From a virus: DNA of 33,851 bases. This document shows, piece after piece, positions 1,347 through 23,671 of the stretch (the stretch's first letter is position 1; each line of letters begins with the position of its first letter). Under the pieces are notes generated by a model. The model saw only the letters and a program-made list of their open reading frames with translations, was not told the DNA's origin and made no database searches. The translations under genes and the position numbers were made by a program. The DNA is taken from positions 1 through 33,851 of the IMG/VR virus record IMGVR_UViG_3300025138_000167; one strand, given 5' to 3'.

Positions 1347-4300
1347 TTACATACGGCCTACAACTACTTCAATAACGCCTTCTGCGCCGTCAAAGTCTTC
1401 TAGTGCCTTACCGATTACTGATCCCATTTTTGGATCTTCTTCAGCACGGGCCTTACCACCACCTGCACTTACAAGCATATCACCTTTAGCAATTTTACCT
1501 GTAACTTTACAAGGTACACGACCTTGTAATGCAACTGCGATACCGTCTGCATCACTGTTCATTAAGTATGCTGGGTTTGTTGAAACAACACCTGCAACCT
1601 TTTTACAATGATCGTCACCACACTCAGTTACTTCAGCGTCACCGCCAAACATTACCACAGTACCTGGAGCAATATTACCGTCTGCTTTATAGATCTCAGC
1701 CAAGTCAGCGTATTGTGCCGAAGTTGCTGTACCACTAAATGTACCAGCGTTAGTAATGTCGTTTCCGCCCATGTTAATGTCACCACTCATAGTACCACCT
1801 GTCAACTGTAATCTTGCGTTTACAGATGCGTTGATTGTACTTGCGAAGTTGGCGTCATCACCTAGTGCTGCCGCTAATTCGTTAAGTGTGTCTAATGTAC
1901 CAGGCGCACTATCTACTAGTCCGTTAAGCTCATTATCGACATATGCCTTAGTTGTTAAATGGTATGCATTACTTGGTGTGTAATTTGATGCAGTTAGAAT
2001 ACTACCTGCAGTCAATGTTAACAACGCCGCGTTATCTACATTAAACGCAATGTTACCTGAACCAGTATCTGTAACTGTAACACCAGTATCTGACTGGTTA
2101 ATAGCACTTGAACTGATTTCTTGTAAACCACTAGCAGTAAATGTAGCAACAGTTGAACCACCAACTTTAATCAATACTTGATCATTGTCAGCATCCATAA
2201 CGATCGACTCTTGACCGTCTGTACCTGTTATTGTTGTAACAGTTGATGTTGTTGTTAATACACGAGCATCAATAACATCGCCAGTTGCCGGAGCCTCTGT
2301 AAACGTTAATGTTGTTCCACTAATCGCATAAGCAGTTGTTGGAATCTGTACAACACCGTTTAATGCAACGATTGTTGTAGCAGTTGTACCACTTACACTT
2401 AATGTAAATGCAACTGTACTATCATCACCAGCAAAAGCGTCTGCTGTAATAACTGTAAAGTCAGTACCTGCATTCCACTCAGTACCTGTATATACTTCAA
2501 TAGCACCAGTTGAACTGTTAAAACGGAACATACCCGCTACACCAGTTGCTGGTCTTTGTGCTGAAGTACCTACCGGTAACATCATACTATCAGTTGCTTG
2601 AACTTTAAAAGTTGCACCAGTTGTAGCAGTTGTACCACCAACAATACCTGATGCAGCTGTAATTGCTCCACCAAATGCGGCACTTGTGTCGCTAATTGTT
2701 AATTGTGTACTTGTACCATTATCATCAATACCAGTTGAAGCGAAAGTACCAATTGTACCGCCTTGTATCTTATCACCTGAGATTTGATTGTCTGCTAATG
2801 TTAAAGTACCACCACTTACATCAATAGTTTTACCACTACCAGCAGTTACACTACCAGTTAAGTCACCAGTTACGTCACCAGTTACATCACCAGTTAAGTC
2901 GCCAGTAATGCTTGTTGAAGCAGCCAATGTTGTAAATGTACCTGCAGCCGGAGTATTTCCACCTACAACGCCATCGATTGGTCCAGCAAAACCAGTGTTT
3001 GCAGTAATAGTTGTACCAGTTACGGCTGCTGGAGTATTGTTACCCACAACGCCATCAATTGGGCCAACAAAGCCAGTGTTTGCAGTAATAGTTGTACCAG
3101 TTACGGCTGCTGGAGTAGTTCCACCAACGATACCATCTTGTGTACCTGTTACGTTACCTGTTACGTTACCTGTTAAGTTACCTGTGATATCAGTTGTTAA
3201 AGCAGATCCGTCAAATGCAGGACCGTCTGTTAATTCACCGTTTGCACCGGCTAGTACTAAATCACCTGATGTTAAGTCTTCAACTCTCATACTTCCGAAA
3301 GCCGCAGCACCTAAAGAACCACTGATAACACTTGAAGTATCAGTTGCATCTGCAATGTAGATAAACTCATTACCAGTTTCACTCATATCCGCTCCAAAAT
3401 AACCCTTCTTAGAAGCGCCATCATTGTGTAGGAATAAGATACCTCTGTCTAAACTATCTGCACTATCGGCACCAACCTGGAAGATTGGATCTGCAATAGT
3501 TACAACAGTTGAGTCAACAGTTGTTGTTGTACCTTGAACAGTTAAGTTACCAGCAACGATTAACGTTCCACCACTTCCATCTGGAGTTGGATCGATTGTT
3601 AAATCACCACTTGTACTTCTGATTGTACCACCATCTATTCTGATGTTACCTAGTGTAAAACCGTCTGCATCAATTTTGCCTTCTTCAGCACCATCAATGT
3701 TAAATGCGATCTTACCGTCTGACCCTGTGTCAGTTACAACAACACTTGAATTACCTTGTGTTATTGAGTTTTCTGCACCACTTAACTGATCGTCAACATA
3801 TTTCTTTGTTGCCGCGTCTTGGTTTGCAGTTGGATCTACTACGTTTACAATTTTGTTTGTACCAGCATCAATTGTACTAGAAGCATCAAAAGTAATACCA
3901 GCGGCAGTTAATGCACCGTTAATATCTACTGCGTTGAATGAACTTGTACCTGAGCCAGCAGTTACGTTACCAGTTAAGTCACCAGTTACGTCACCTGTAA
4001 TTGTACCAGATGCGCCTATAGTTGTAAATAGACCTGCAGCTGCTGTTGTTGCACCTACTGTTCCATTTAATGCGCCTGCAAAACTTGTATTTGCAGTAAT
4101 AACAGTACCTGTAATTGCAGCCGGTGTATTTCCACCAACGATACCGTCGATGTTACCAGTTACATTACCTGTAAGAGCACCTGCAAAGTTTGTGTTTGCA
4201 GTAATAACTGTACCAGTTACGGCAGCAGGTGTTGTTCCACCTACGATACCATCAACTGCACCAGTGTGAGCACCAGCAGAAGCACCTGTTAGGTCTCCAG

Positions 4301-11301: not shown

Positions 11302-11760
11302 TTAAGCGTCTTCTGTAAAGTCGTCATCATCTGTGTTAGCAACGTCATCGTCACCTGCTTCTTCAAGTTGTACTTTACCTGATGATGCGGCTGCAAAATC
11401 CCACTTTAATGATAAACCATTTAGTGCATTTGAACCTGTTGCACTTGGTTGTGCGGCTGTTATTTTACGAGCAGTAATTTTACTTACGCCATAAGTTTCA
11501 CTGTCGCTACCGTCAACTGAAATTGACATTTCACCGGCTGCTAGAGCAGATGATAATTTACCAGTTGTTAGTGTGCAAGTGTGTGTTGTATCAGCAGTAC
11601 CTGTTTCAGCACATACAAATTTCTTTGAACCTTTTTGCTTAATAATTGTACCTTCAACCACAGCAGTACCATTGTGAAAGTTTACTTTAATTTCGCTCTT
11701 ACCAGCAGTAGCACCTGCAACTGCACCTGTAAAAAGTCTCTTGTTTAGTGGACGTCCCAT
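11302..11760 (-). CDS. Conserved small virion-type protein next to gp23 (152 aa)
   Basis: Begins MGRPLNKRLFTGAVAGATAG and ends in an acidic tail (EEAGDDDVANTDDDDFTEDA). The centre is short beta-type sequence with VVEGTIIKQKGSKKFVCAE. I recall the MGRPLNKR-type start from proteins of unknown function beside the capsid gene in marine T4-like phages, but cannot confirm it. It is bounded by its own late-promoter motif, a strong RBS (AAGGAG) and a strong terminator, so it is a single-gene unit, which suggests high and separately tuned expression. A head decoration or tail structural role is possible. No catalytic motif is visible. Confidence 0.65.
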   Translation of the reverse strand: MGRPLNKRLFTGAVAGATAGKSEIKVNFHNGTAVVEGTIIKQKGSKKFVCAETGTADTTHTCTLTTGKLSSALAAGEMSISVDGSDSETYGVSKITARKITAAQPSATGSNALNGLSLKWDFAAASSGKVQLEEAGDDDVANTDDDDFTEDA

Positions 11761-11792
11761 TTGTTTCTCCTTAGTTACGTTCTATGTAATAC

Positions 11793-11806
11793 GGGGTTGG
11801 TGCCCC
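11793..11806. promoter_or_regulatory. Leader hairpin of the 152-aa gene
   Basis: GGGG/CCCC arms with a 6-nt loop lie between the late-promoter motif at 11836-11842 and the start at 11760, so they would fold in the 5' leader. Confidence 0.3.
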
Positions 11807-11835
11807 ATAAGTAAATGCTTATGCATCTACAAGTA

Positions 11836-20128: not shown

Positions 20129-20992
20129 ATGGATGAAAACGCGAATCCTTTAAAACAGGATCAAAATCCCTTAACCGGGTATTTTCGTAAACCCGAAGTA
20201 TATGTATCTCTACCCAGCAAAGGAAACTACTATGCACATGGTGCCTTAGATCTTCCACAAAATGGCGAGATAGGTGTATTTCCAATGACTGCAAAAGACG
20301 AGTTAGTCTTTAAAACTCCAGATGCACTACTTAACGGAAGCAGTACCGTTGAAGTTATTAAGAGTTGTGTACCTTCTATTAAAGACCCGTGGTCCATACC
20401 AAGTTTAGATATGGATGTTATATTAATTGCTATTCGTATTGCAACATACGGTAATCAAATGGATATTACCGCTACTTGCCCTACTTGTCAATCACAAAAT
20501 GAGTTTGGTATTGACTTAGCAAACTTAATTGATCAAAGTGGCAAATGGGTGTTCAATAATACGTTAAAAATTAATGATTTAACAATTACATTTAAACCGT
20601 TATCATATAAAGACTTGAACACTGAAAATCTAAGACAATTTGAAGAAGCAAAAATTATGAGAATTGTCAATGATGAAACAACAACTGATGAGCAAAAACA
20701 AGATTTATTTAACGATACGTTCTTAAAACTCACAGTACACACTGTTGACTTAATTGCTAAAACAATTTATAAAATTACTACTGCTGATGGTACCGAAGTA
20801 ACAAATCCTACACACATCAATGAGTTCGTACATGGAGTTGATAGAAAGATGTTTGACAATATTCAAAAACATCTTGATAATGAAAGAATCAATAACAGTT
20901 TTGCAGAGTTTGAATTAACTTGCGAAAATGAAGGTTGTGACACAAAGTATAAAACACCTATAGTATTTGACAATTCAAATTTTTTCGCATAA
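20129..20992 (+). CDS. 26: Baseplate hub subunit gp26
   Basis: T4-type baseplate hub protein (T4_baseplate family). The N-terminal YFRKPEVYVSLPSKGNYYAH and GEIGVFPMTAKDELVFKTPD segments ('LPS.G..Y' and 'MT..DE') are the family hallmark, followed by IDMTATCPTCQ-like text (ITATCPTCQSQNEFGIDLAN). CPTC near residue 115 and CENEGC near 271 form a possible four-Cys metal site. Length 287 versus 208 in T4. RBS GGAG lies 9 nt before ATG. In the last codons (NSNFFA, stop at 20990-20992) it carries a -1 frameshift signal, so part of the product is predicted to be a 362-residue gp26 fusion reaching the next frame. Confidence 0.9.
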   Translation: MDENANPLKQDQNPLTGYFRKPEVYVSLPSKGNYYAHGALDLPQNGEIGVFPMTAKDELVFKTPDALLNGSSTVEVIKSCVPSIKDPWSIPSLDMDVILIAIRIATYGNQMDITATCPTCQSQNEFGIDLANLIDQSGKWVFNNTLKINDLTITFKPLSYKDLNTENLRQFEEAKIMRIVNDETTTDEQKQDLFNDTFLKLTVHTVDLIAKTIYKITTADGTEVTNPTHINEFVHGVDRKMFDNIQKHLDNERINNSFAEFELTCENEGCDTKYKTPIVFDNSNFFA

Positions 20993-21054
20993 GGCTTCTG
21001 AGTCTTAGCAACGAAGATATCGAATCGATGCTAAAGCAGTTTGACACAGAAGCC
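20977..21054 (+). promoter_or_regulatory. Programmed -1 ribosomal frameshift element
   Basis: Two overlapping slippery heptamers are in frame at the end of gp26: A AAT TTT (20977-20983) and T TTT TTC (20980-20986). Six nucleotides after the second (20987-20992, which include the TAA stop) begins a stem GGCTTCTG (20993-21000) pairing perfectly with CAGAAGCC (21047-21054). Inside it, after an A-A mismatch, GTC (21002-21004) pairs GAC (21043-21045), and TTAGCA (21005-21010) pairs TGCTAA (21029-21034). The -1 frame is open only from 20971 (a TGA is at 20968), so the slippery site falls inside a 22-nt overlap window. Confidence 0.85.
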
Positions 21055-21216
21055 GACACTATTAGAGAAAATATATTTAAGATAGTTTGGTATATGCGTG
21101 GTGGCATTAATCTGGACCAGGCATTCATGCTCAATCAGAAAGAGCAGAAGATTGTCTACGATATCGTTGCGGAAAACATCAAGAACACAGAGAAAAGCGG
21201 AATGCCATTACTATAG
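20986..21216 (+). CDS. gp51-like C-terminal extension of gp26, read by -1 frameshift
   Basis: After the slip the frame reads RIRLLSLSNEDIESMLKQFD, then IRENIFKIVWYMRGGINLDQ and AFMLNQKEQKIVYDIVAENI, ending GMPLL: 76 residues, or 62 if started at the only ATG (21028). The 'LLSLSNE' run before that ATG looks like real protein, and the ATG has no Shine-Dalgarno sequence, so independent initiation is unlikely. Small proteins of this type ('WYMRGG...AF.L') follow gp26 in marine T4-like phages (recalled, not checked). By analogy with lambda G/GT, short and long products would both act as tape-measure or hub assembly chaperones. T4 gp51 is a separate hub assembly factor; equivalence is inferred. Confidence 0.75.
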   Translation, partial: RIRLLSLSNEDIESMLKQFDTEADTIRENIFKIVWYMRGGINLDQAFMLNQKEQKIVYDIVAENIKNTEKSGMPLL

Positions 21217-21229
21217 CATCACACTATAA

Positions 21230-21281
21230 GATGAACTAAAGTTCATCAGCAATTTCGTTTTTCAAACTCATTGCTTTTTTC
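21230..21281 (+). terminator. Terminator region after gp26 operon
   Basis: First a 7-bp hairpin, GATGAAC-TAAA-GTTCATC (21230-21247). Then AGCAAT (21248-21253) pairs ATTGCT (21270-21275) around an inner GTTT/AAAC hairpin, followed by TTTTT (21276-21280). The second hairpin with its U run is a plausible intrinsic terminator. Confidence 0.6.
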
Positions 21282-21298
21282 TTAATTAATAATATATA
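21271..21298 (+). promoter_or_regulatory. Possible sigma-70-type promoter for the candidate RNA
   Basis: TTGCTT (21271-21276) and TATATA (21293-21298) are 16 nt apart; TATAAC at 21295 would give 18. The -35 is the same type as the TTGC(T/C) box of the gp55 promoter. A 12-bp direct repeat, TATATAACTAAA, occurs at 21293-21304 and 21309-21320. Start would fall near 21306. Confidence 0.35.
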
Positions 21299-21305
21299 AC
21301 TAAAT

Positions 21306-21523
21306 GATTATATAACTAAAGTCTTCATGCAGATCGTTTCAGTCAGACGGAACCTGTTTAAGGGTTCCATCTAATCTTGACTTCATGCGAGTATTACCCA
21401 GCCGAGACTTGGAAGTAGGTATTCTTTATACACAAGTTTGATGGGCTCTGACCTTACCCAACCTACGTCGACATACATATTGCTATGTTACCCCACGCTT
21501 CGTTCCTGTTGCCATGGGTTTTT
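21306..21523 (+). ncRNA. Candidate structured non-coding RNA (unidentified)
   Basis: Part of a 484-bp gene-free gap between converging genes, unusual in this compact genome. GC here is about 43% over 21361-21540, visibly above nearby genes. Strong pairings: GGAACC (21349-21354) with GGTTCC (21363-21368), extended by AGA/TCT and by AGTC (21341-21344) with GACT (21379-21382); GTAGGT (21415-21420) with ACCTAC (21461-21466) stacked on TGGG (21442-21445) with CCCA (21457-21460); ACATA (21471-21475) with TATGT (21484-21488). CTTCATGC is repeated at 21323 and 21381, flanking the first hairpin. A possible end is a weak CCCA/TGGG stem before TTTTT (21519-21523). I do not recognise it as tmRNA, RNase P, a tRNA or a group I intron. 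The minus strand cannot be excluded. Confidence 0.4.
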
Positions 21524-21540
21524 ACAAACTATATTGTGTT

Positions 21541-21700
21541 TTTTGATTGACAGTAATTCAATCTATACTAACCGGTGAGCCCAATTTGTTTGATGGCTTC
21601 CACACTCTGGTGTGTTGATCTGTATGTTGCGTGTGTTCCTATACGGAAACTTTTTCCACAGCGGTAATTTAAACTGGCCCGCTAACCTTAAGTACTGTAA
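21541..21700. other. Remainder of gene-free gap
   Basis: No coding frame of note. Three small inverted repeats are present: GATTGA/TCAATC (21545-21563), CACAC/GTGTG (21601-21614) and AGCGG/CCGCT (21660-21683). They could belong to the candidate RNA or form 3' ends for the minus-strand operon, but none has a U run on the minus strand. Confidence 0.4.
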
Positions 21701-22141
21701 CTATAATTGTTGATTGTTCTTGAACTGTTGAATGCCTTCGTGGAGAATTTTGCTACTGCCTACGCGAACGTTTATAATGCCATTATAGTAATCATCTGAT
21801 AAAAGAACTTCTCTTTCAAACTGCTCCTTTGCTTCAAGGTAACTCATTAAGCCCCTACTTGAACAAAGATAAAGTATTTCACGTGTGAAGTTCTTGCTGC
21901 CTAGCTCTGCTACATCTGCCTGTAAGTGATCTGAAGATCCATAATATTCTCTCCAATCACTTTCTACTGTGGTTCGTCTTTTGTTTTTCTTACCTTTAAG
22001 AGGTGGTTTTGTTTTTTTAAATTTTGCTAATTTTTTGCCAATGTATTTTTTGTTGCTTTTTAAGTTGGTTATTAAGTAAACAAATCCTTCAATGTCACTT
22101 GGTAACTGCTCAATAGGATCACCCTTGTAAGTCCAACTCAT
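21701..22141 (-). CDS. GIY-YIG nuclease-like protein (146 aa)
   Basis: After a short N-terminal extension, EGFVYLITNLKSNKKYIGKK has the GIY (FVY, residues 20-22) and YIG (33-35) halves with the usual 10-residue spacing. Downstream, LEAKEQFEREVLL supplies the conserved Glu (about 103) and DYYNGIINV the conserved Asn (about 120). The middle is strongly basic (KTKPPLKGKKNKRRTTVESD), fitting DNA binding. No separate DNA-binding domain of a homing enzyme is present. It could be a free-standing endonuclease or a recombination/repair accessory. Its start overlaps the stop of the DUF6356-like gene by 4 bp (ATGA), so it is the last gene of the gp46 operon. Confidence 0.72.
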   Translation of the reverse strand: MSWTYKGDPIEQLPSDIEGFVYLITNLKSNKKYIGKKLAKFKKTKPPLKGKKNKRRTTVESDWREYYGSSDHLQADVAELGSKNFTREILYLCSSRGLMSYLEAKEQFEREVLLSDDYYNGIINVRVGSSKILHEGIQQFKNNQQL

Positions 22142-22356
22142 TTCTTTTGTTTTCTTAACTGCTGTAATTGTAATGCCTTCTTGTGGTAATAGTCAACCTT
22201 TTTCTCTGCATAAAATGGTAAAACGTTAGGAAGTATACCATGTATAATACTAACTATACCTGTGAGTATAAGATCGAAGCCTGCCACAACAGCAAACTTA
22301 CCATGCTGGAAGTATCCTTTACGAGCTTCGTTAAGATGAGCTTTAATTTGAAACAT
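22138..22356 (-). CDS. Small hydrophobic protein, DUF6356-like (72 aa)
   Basis: MFQIKAHLNEARKGYFQHGK, then FAVVAGFDLILTGIVSIIHG and a basic tail (YHKKALQLQQLRKQKK). The layout (short polar head with Y..H, a hydrophobic segment of about 25 residues with 'GI.S.IHGI.P', charged tail) resembles DUF6356, small membrane-associated proteins found in bacteria and marine phages. One or two membrane passes are likely; function unknown. Its start lies 14 bp inside the ligase gene and its stop overlaps the next gene by 4 bp, so all three are translationally linked. Confidence 0.65.
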   Translation of the reverse strand: MFQIKAHLNEARKGYFQHGKFAVVAGFDLILTGIVSIIHGILPNVLPFYAEKKVDYYHKKALQLQQLRKQKK

Positions 22357-23671
22357 ACTTGTGCCTTAATTTTCCTATATCAGGTTTTCCTAATACATTA
22401 AGCTCTATGGGTACTATTAGTTTATCATAACTGATACCCTGGCCTGTTAATTTCTGGATCAAACTATCAGTATTCACTGAATCATCATTCACACAGACTA
22501 CAACATGTGTCTGAGAAGTACCAAACAACACAAGTTTTGTTGCTTGACTTTCGTCAACAAGTTGTTGTGGATTAACTAACTCTCCGTTAATCCTTATAAA
22601 ATCTTTATTACGTTTTTCAAAATAATAATTGTTTCCAACCGTGTTTACACGGTCACCTGTATTTAATGTATCCACATTAGAATCATTGATTTGGGTTGCT
22701 AAATGTTTACTTTTAACAATCACTAATTCACCGTGCCTATCAATTTTATACTCGGCAGTATCATCACAGTTTACGCCCATATCTTGTTGATTGTAGTCAG
22801 CAATATTTTGTTTGTTTATAAACTTGTGCATAATAGGAGGCAAACATTCTGTTAGCCCGTATATTACAACAACGTCACTAACACCTTGTTTAATTAGTTT
22901 TTCACAAAATGTTTTTGGAATCGTTGAGCCGCCAGTAAGTACATACTTAACATGACTTAAATCTAACTTGCTTAAATTTTCATACTGCTCGTAATTTGAC
23001 GGAAACAATAGCATTGTATCAGGCTTGTGTTTATTAAATGTATCAACGTCATATGTGTCCCATAACTGAGGCAAAACGACCTTTTTACTAGAAAATAACG
23101 CAGGAAAGAAATACACAGTACTAACACCTAAGTGTACAATATTATGATAAAACCAACTTACTTTTGCTTCTTTCCAGTAGTGCTTGATACTATCGTTTGA
23201 AGCACAAGTAATACTTTCGTGTGTATGTTTTACTGTTTTAGAATGCCCTGTTGTACCACTAGTAAACGATTCTAGTATAATATCATTGTGGTTAACACGA
23301 TAAAGTTTTGATGGTTTAATATTGCCATCTAATTCAATATGAGGAACATTAACAGTTTCTACAATTACAGGTTGTATTCCACGAGTTAAAACAATTTTAA
23401 TATTGCTCCTTGCACAGTACTCGTCATCAATGTAGTGATCGCCGCTAATAACAGGAACAAGTCCGTAGTCAATAGAAGCAAACACTACTGCTAAATGATG
23501 TATGTCTTCTTGCAGACACAATGAAATACGATCGCCTCTTTTAAGTTTTTGACTCTCAAAGAAACACTGATATCCTCCAGCAAGACAAGTTAGCTCATCT
23601 TTACTGTAGATACGTTCGTTAGTGCAATCATGTATTTCAATATCGTTTTGTAATCTCGATATTGAAATCAT
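22343..23671 (-). CDS. AMP-forming adenylate/acyl-CoA ligase (ANL superfamily), 442 aa
   Basis: Enzyme of the family that activates a carboxylic acid with ATP to an acyl-adenylate and usually passes it to CoA or a carrier. The family motifs appear in order: P-loop FTSGTTGHSKTVKHTH (136-151; Ser where Pro is usual in TGxPK), YHNIVHLG (175-182), YGLTE (271-275), NTGDR (337-341), KDFIRINGELVNPQQL (356-371) and NVLGKPDIGKLR (425-436, with the expected catalytic Lys434). At 442 residues it is shorter than typical acyl-CoA synthetases (500-600), mainly in the N-terminal and C-terminal subdomains. All core residues appear kept, so it is probably active, but the substrate cannot be told. Its ATG overlaps the preceding stop (TAATG). 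An unusual gene for a T4-like phage and a candidate auxiliary metabolic gene. Confidence 0.85.
   Translation of the reverse strand: MISISRLQNDIEIHDCTNERIYSKDELTCLAGGYQCFFESQKLKRGDRISLCLQEDIHHLAVVFASIDYGLVPVISGDHYIDDEYCARSNIKIVLTRGIQPVIVETVNVPHIELDGNIKPSKLYRVNHNDIILESFTSGTTGHSKTVKHTHESITCASNDSIKHYWKEAKVSWFYHNIVHLGVSTVYFFPALFSSKKVVLPQLWDTYDVDTFNKHKPDTMLLFPSNYEQYENLSKLDLSHVKYVLTGGSTIPKTFCEKLIKQGVSDVVVIYGLTECLPPIMHKFINKQNIADYNQQDMGVNCDDTAEYKIDRHGELVIVKSKHLATQINDSNVDTLNTGDRVNTVGNNYYFEKRNKDFIRINGELVNPQQLVDESQATKLVLFGTSQTHVVVCVNDDSVNTDSLIQKLTGQGISYDKLIVPIELNVLGKPDIGKLRHKYVSN

Follow-up and report, generated by a model that had tools for sequence, protein, structure and literature searches.

The tail genes of phage P2 (E/E+E') use the same kind of -1 slip as those of phage lambda, and the heptamers of both phages differ from the one described here. 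The 2022 abstract of Vladimirov et al. reportedly states that frameshifting appears conserved in several T4-like groups and that the T4 group uses genes 26 and 51. As described in a 2016 review, a -1 slip late in a small tail gene of lambda (gpG) yields a longer, minor form (gpGT), with the tape measure gene adjacent, and frameshifting of this G-T kind is broadly conserved among phages with long tails, "except T4" (PMC5009743). We analyzed a 33,851-nucleotide stretch of viral DNA, here called the window, in which a gp26-like gene is predicted to make such a slip beside a putative tape measure gene. Judged by its Pfam assignment (PF12322), the window protein belongs to a different family from lambda G and P2 E.

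Closer to the window are the T4-like proteins TAC-N and TAC-NC (Vladimirov, Gautam and Davidson 2022, Virology 566:9-15), which are reported to come in short and long forms and apparently belong to the same gene family as the window gene. Two papers (PMC10885494 and PMC12846349) cite Vladimirov et al. in the sense given above for its abstract, and the second describes a poly-T slip where the short form of T4-like TAC-N ends, as in the window (PMC12846349). The same paper, on phage Adele, presents comparative evidence that in the Vandenendeviridae and Andersonviridae TAC-N ends in a poly-T motif, reported as an invariant GTTTTT, at which a -1 slip takes place; these chaperones come from other phage families than the window's and are likened to it by that description. 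Because frameshifting in T4-like tail chaperones was already published, the window is a further case of a mechanism that is in print. A search covering titles and the opening lines of abstracts, with most subscription papers lying outside it, found no report of the junction in jumbo phages. Our additions to the printed record are the breadth of the comparison, a codon test, RNA tests, and a stem whose 5' arm is anchored and whose 3' arm moves.

Taken together, the data indicate that the window gene very probably encodes a tail assembly chaperone of the T4-like kind and yields two proteins through programmed -1 ribosomal frameshifting. Comparison of the sequences of relatives shows a conserved site, reading frame, codon choice, helix and protein collinearity, and the gene is best read, by analogy, as a tail assembly chaperone of the G/GT type.

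The gp26 junction in the window

The gp26-like gene of the window ends in AAATTTTTTC, and its last codons in the 0 frame are TCA AAT TTT TTC GCA TAA. The initial annotation, which proposed that a -1 slip here joins gp26 to a gp51-like extension, described the site accurately. Two overlapping in-frame heptamers, AAATTTT and TTTTTTC, occupy the end of the gene and are followed by a spacer of 6 nt (Table 1). The -1 frame is open only from 20971, to 21213, the preceding -1 stop being a TGA at 20968. The first ATG, GTG or TTG in this frame is the ATG at 21028, where the Shine-Dalgarno match covers 3 bases only. After a shift, reading would resume with the codon that begins at 20986, the C of the heptamer; the final sense codon of the frame is completed at 21213. 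The predicted products, a short form of 287 residues and, by in-silico fusion, a long form of 362 residues, have the sizes first proposed. The 26 open reading frames (ORFs) of the window that were taken as genes contain 32 in-frame XXXYYYZ heptamers, and the two at the junction are the only ones that lie no more than 45 nt from a stop, and also the only ones that lead into at least 30 codons beyond it. The presence of a slip-site junction in the window is secure.

Table 1. Features of the gp26 junction and its divergent neighbor, in window coordinates
Feature	Position	Strand	Basis
Divergent neighbor, putative tape measure protein, 776 aa	17738..20068	-	Weak profile matches and position
gp26-like gene, predicted short form (TAC-N), 287 aa	20129..20992	+	PF12322, phrog_150, AF2 model
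Overlapping heptamer A AAT TTT (AAATTTT)	20977..20983	+	Not conserved in most relatives
Slippery heptamer T TTT TTC	20980..20986	+	In-frame in relatives; codon test
6-nt spacer, including the 0-frame stop TAA (20990-20992)	20987..20992	+	
-1 frame extension, predicted to be read after the slip	20987..21216	+	Open frame; protein conservation
5' arm of the predicted stimulatory stem, GGCTTCTG; codes R-L-L in the -1 frame	20993..21000	+	Fold; same spacing in the FFR lineage
3' arm of the predicted stem, CAGAAGCC	21047..21054	+	Fold; register shared only by the closest relatives, L010, L011 and L092

The product of the divergent neighbor matches tape measure profiles over a glycine-rich stretch (phrog_23574, 3.4e-6; phrog_167, 0.002) and has stronger matches under other names, for example, phrog_1047, "tail associated lysin" (2.1e-10). 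BLASTP of this product against the gp26 neighbors in Phosso, PA5oct and RaK2 gave no convincing match. The weak tape measure matches hint that the neighbor may be the tape measure gene. The public record of PA5oct carries ESI-MS/MS notes on neighboring genes and none on the gp26-like gene, a faint hint that the gp26-like protein may be missing from the virion.

On the other side, the roughly 480 bases between the stop of the extension and the convergent ORF 21701-22141 (positions 21217 to 21700) contain no listed ORF of at least 60 aa, no tRNA and no Rfam match at gathering score. This convergent ORF encodes a SegE-type GIY-YIG nuclease (PF19835, 4.3e-36) and adjoins a gene at 22343-23671 (minus strand) that encodes, amid phage genes, a 442-aa AMP-binding enzyme (PF00501, 4.2e-28). 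Elsewhere in the window, the Rfam "freshwater-2" RNA (RF02980, 54.4 bits) lies at 11758-11828 on the minus strand, immediately ahead of ORF 11302-11760 (minus strand) and in contact with its start; the product of this ORF has no Pfam match at 0.01.

Conservation and codon choice at the slip site

Relatives were collected by tblastn with gp26, which returned 64 phage records, including PA5oct, Atu_ph07, Phosso and phages of the RaK2, 121Q and GAP32 kinds, and by scanning IMG/VR with peptide patterns; named phages were then added. The three scans contributed 80 of 126 loci, 28 loci, and 80 of at least 599 loci. One of the six peptide patterns of the 28-locus scan lies on the junction, and the patterns of both 80-locus scans lie off it. 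The 207 loci with a gp26 3' end formed 106 clusters at 90% protein identity, a count that excludes L012, L084 and L108 (unusable gp26 3' ends), a copy of the window (L001) and T4 (L113). A search with the extension alone returned three records (Atu_ph07 twice and Phosso), each showing the same -1 relation to gp26.

The alignment of the junction across these relatives, suggested as a check in the initial annotation, bore out the proposal. TTTTTTC is present in frame in 98 of the 106 gp26 clusters, TTTTTTT in 3, and neither in 5, and all 101 heptamer-bearing clusters have a -1 frame that is open from the slip onward. Where a cluster is not cut by a contig end, this frame extends 53 to 79 codons beyond the stop, heptamer-less clusters included. 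The distance from slip to stop is 10 nt in 61 of the 101 clusters, 16 nt in 21, 19 nt in 14, and another value in 5. The site had been proposed for T4-like marine phages; cyanophages do carry it, but it is not confined to marine phages, as we also found the junction in soil and enteric-host jumbo phages, in Caulobacter phage Cr30, and in the Straboviridae AS-szw and LPCS28.

Among the five clusters that lack the heptamer, three divergent ones (L056, L070 and L079) read AAATTTTTCC; they have lost T TTT TTC and kept A AAT TTT and the -1 frame, and they offer a natural test of which heptamer suffices. The other two are Cba120 (L210, Ackermannviridae) and Vibrio phage K361 (L209), in which the -1 ORF is retained although no slip heptamer is present; in K361 the gp26 stop shares bases with an ATG, whereas Cba120 has no ATG there. 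In XacN1 (L211; gp26 at 2480-3319), the -1 frame is already open before the slip, and the 0 frame runs about ten codons past its usual end, because T TTT TTT sits 37 nt ahead of the stop.

Codon usage at the slip is strongly constrained. The first Phe is encoded by TTT in 101 of 101 clusters (background in the same genes, 0.713), and the second by TTC in 98 of 101, though TTC is used less often than TTT (binomial p = 4e-49). A codon ending in T precedes them in every cluster, against 61.6 expected (log10 P = -22), while the residues encoded just before TTT TTY number eight (N, S, D, H, T, Y, R and A). As a control, the 38 other FF pairs in gp26 include 2 of the form NNT TTT TTC and 4 of the form NNT TTT TTY. 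These p-values are too small, because the clusters are related and not independent. Under looser clustering, the site is found in 49 of 52 clusters at 60% and in 15 of 17 at 40%, the latter being the cautious level for the codon test. The codon choice exceeds what the protein needs, which points to selection at synonymous positions of the heptamer.

Both overlapping heptamers had been put forward as the slip site. TTTTTTC (or TTTTTTT) is conserved, whereas AAATTTT is not: AAT precedes TTT in 64 of 101 clusters and another codon does so in 37. A AAT TTT was dismissed as the principal place of slippage because the residue before TTT TTY varies while the final T of its codon is invariant (101 of 101).

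Predicted RNA structure around the slip

In the minimum-energy fold of the window, the perfect 8-bp stem between GGCTTCTG and CAGAAGCC recognized in the initial annotation is present, together with its extension by GTC/GAC and TTAGCA/TGCTAA. The stem region folds at -23.4 kcal/mol (z = -3.98), and 0 of 200 shuffled sequences were equally stable. Over 104 clusters, the 70 nt that follow the heptamer have a mean z of -2.24, compared with -0.41 for control windows from the same genes (p = 6e-26). Counted from the end of the heptamer, pairing increases at nt 7-8; in the FFH group it does so at nt 3, and in cyanophages partly from nt 4 onward.

To obtain a null expectation for the helix, the 5' arm was held fixed and the downstream codons were redrawn synonymously. 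Measured in this way, a strong helix at fixed spacing is in excess in the window lineage (29 of 37 clusters versus 7.8 expected; p < 5e-5, 0 of 20,000 simulations), in the FFH group (16 of 22 versus 7.4; p = 5e-5), in cyanophages (29 of 30 versus 13.2; p < 5e-5, 0 of 20,000) and in other phages (8 of 15 versus 3.4; p = 5e-3). No such helix is predicted in the remaining 8 of the 37 window-lineage clusters. The 5' arm in the window lineage begins 6 nt past the heptamer and is paired with a probability above 0.9 in 29 of 35 sequences, and its partners fall in ten columns, or eight when neighboring columns are merged (L050 and L058 were left out of the RNAalifold runs and of the partner-column listing). 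The predicted folds place the 5' arm of the stem at an anchored position and let the 3' arm move between lineages. Owing to this mobility of the 3' arm, RNAalifold found no consensus fold for either window-side group.

Covariation of heptamer, spacer and stem, the other outcome proposed for this alignment, was seen in part. Compensatory changes occur at three pairs among 8 sequences of one register, which differs from that of the window, with a structure derived from these same sequences (alignment A1, 8 of 10 loci, L002 and L034 omitted), and at three pairs among 30 cyanophage sequences. In the window and its three nearest relatives (L010, L011 and L092), the 3' arm is too conserved for covariation to show.

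Upstream of the slip, a Shine-Dalgarno-like element is enriched in cyanophages (mean score, 5.52 versus 2.18; p = 8e-8), with a gap of 7 to 10 nt where it is strong, and in the other phages as well (5.44 versus 2.41; p = 5e-4). We did not find this upstream stimulator in the window lineage, where scores are below background.

The extension, its translation and its history

The gp26-like protein of the window matches PF12322 (T4_baseplate, 3.3e-18) and the baseplate hub profile phrog_150 (1.4e-20). In T4, both gp26 and gp51 match PF12322 over its full length, and of the two only gp51 goes on into phrog_634 and reaches the end of phrog_150. A 60-aa cyanophage ORF annotated "gp51" also matches phrog_634 (7.6e-27). 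The extension is conserved from its first post-slip residues (FFR..LL, or FFHGFL in the sister group), upstream of most start codons. A profile of window-side extensions matches one built from cyanophage and other extensions (E = 7e-13) but gives no significant direct match to T4 gp51 (probability, 2%). The description of the extension as gp51-like thus stands by way of intermediates, the cyanophage gp51 ORF and the C terminus of T4 gp51 both lying in phrog_634. In-silico fusions gave a similar picture: 38 from the cyanophage side align to T4-type gp51s straight across the junction (E = 1.8e-17), and 64 from the window side align through the junction to those of the cyanophage side (E = 6.7e-21) and only weakly to T4 gp51 directly (27% probability). 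Short extensions of the second set were left out of the extension profiles and fusion alignments, and L211 was left out of the window-side fusions.

T4 resembles the window in that both of its proteins belong to PF12322, gp51 carries the extension, and the cyanophage-side fusions are collinear with gp51. It differs from the window in that the two forms are two divergent paralogous genes, and gene 26 of T4, which lies outside the cluster count, has no slip heptamer. On these profile alignments, gp26 and gp51 of T4 are paralogues, and gp51 is a naturally occurring fusion in which the extension is joined to the gp26 fold; the T4 lineage likely split the two chaperone forms into two genes.

An AF2 model of window gp26 (mean pLDDT, 91.5) terminates at the slip with a short helix, and the extension would continue this terminal helix. 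In a T4-type gp51 modeled at pLDDT 83.7, the extension folds into C-terminal helices. Searched against a viral library, the window gp26 model matched T4-like baseplate hub assembly proteins (best E = 1.4e-22). Its fold also matches larger uncharacterized proteins of jumbo phages Special G, RSF1, RP12, phiRSL1 and Motura (E = 1e-8 to 1e-5). Among solved structures, there was no convincing sequence relative and no Foldseek PDB match to the model at E ≤ 0.001, and the best Z in a VIA comparison was a middling 7.1, on common helical parts.

The second frame could in principle be translated alone, giving two separate proteins, either from the ATG at 21028 or by re-initiation at the gp26 stop. The public records of several relatives do give the extension its own gene, some of them with a start that overlaps the stop, and -1 overlaps of the TAATG kind are common among phage genes, T4 genes 26 and 25 overlapping in this manner. 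In 9 of 104 clusters (5 TAATG and 4 ATGA), the gp26 stop shares bases with an ATG of the -1 frame, so re-initiation could add product there. In the window, the codon overlapping the stop is AUA. Neither start codons nor ribosome binding sites for the second frame are conserved across relatives. Among the 59 window-like clusters, 2 have no ATG and in the others the first one lies anywhere from 3 to 50 codons past the slip, and a Shine-Dalgarno match of at least 4 bases precedes the first ATG in 6 of 59 window-like, 0 of 30 and 2 of 15 clusters. Simple coupling at the stop was rejected as a general rule: the stop lies at differing distances from the slip (mostly 10, 16 or 19 nt), the slip itself being invariant, and the codon choice and the helix would serve no purpose if the extension were made separately. 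We consider separate translation highly unlikely.

RNA polymerase slippage on T runs is known in general, and if it took place on the six-T run of the junction, which an A precedes, it would yield -1 frame mRNA with no slip by the ribosome. Longer T runs would favor such slippage, yet the second Phe is TTC in nearly all clusters though TTT is commoner, and a downstream RNA helix is conserved at fixed spacing; this origin of the long form is extremely unlikely. The chance is close to negligible that there is no functional link at all, the motif being a conserved N-F-F protein end and the -1 frame a chance overlap with a neighboring gene. While FF is indeed conserved at the protein level too, the synonymous codon test refutes this account unless the dataset is grossly non-independent, and the extension is conserved in a -1 frame that is open in every heptamer cluster.

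Programmed -1 frameshifting accords with what the sequences contain, namely, a heptamer before the stop, an open and conserved frame, downstream structure and selection at synonymous positions. From this pattern we infer that ribosomes slip at the site and that a minority do so. Most would read N-F-F-A-stop and release the 287-aa short form. A minority would be paused by the stem that starts 6 nt downstream, their two Phe-tRNAs would slip back by one base on T TTT TTC, and they would read on through N-F-F-R-I-R-L-L to make the 362-aa long form with its gp51-like C-terminal domain. By analogy with lambda gpG and gpGT, many short and few long copies may cover the tape measure protein while the tail is being built and depart afterward. 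A chaperone role is suggested by membership of the gp26/gp51 family, by the short/long design, in which the long form equals the short form plus a gp51-type C-terminal extension, and by the literature.

We lean slightly toward a history in which the T TTT TTC slip is ancestral for the long chaperone in T4-like phages and their jumbo relatives, with T4 gp26 and gp51 as a later replacement by gene duplication. In this history, the RNA stimulator would evolve by partner switching, its 5' arm staying 6 nt after the heptamer and its 3' arm ranging over eight to ten registers in one lineage, and cyanophages would add the Shine-Dalgarno-like element 7 to 10 nt upstream that is absent in the window lineage.

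Standard gene calling, as the initial annotation expected, splits the protein: the two frames are joined in 0 of 22 public regions examined, where the C-terminal domain appears as a separate small "gp51," as a hypothetical gene, or not at all. Recognizing the slip corrects annotation across an abundant phage group. The junctions also supply a large number of natural variants of heptamer, stem and upstream element with which the evolution of a frameshift signal can be studied, and the slip links T4 hub genes 26 and 51 with the tape measure chaperones of other tailed phages.
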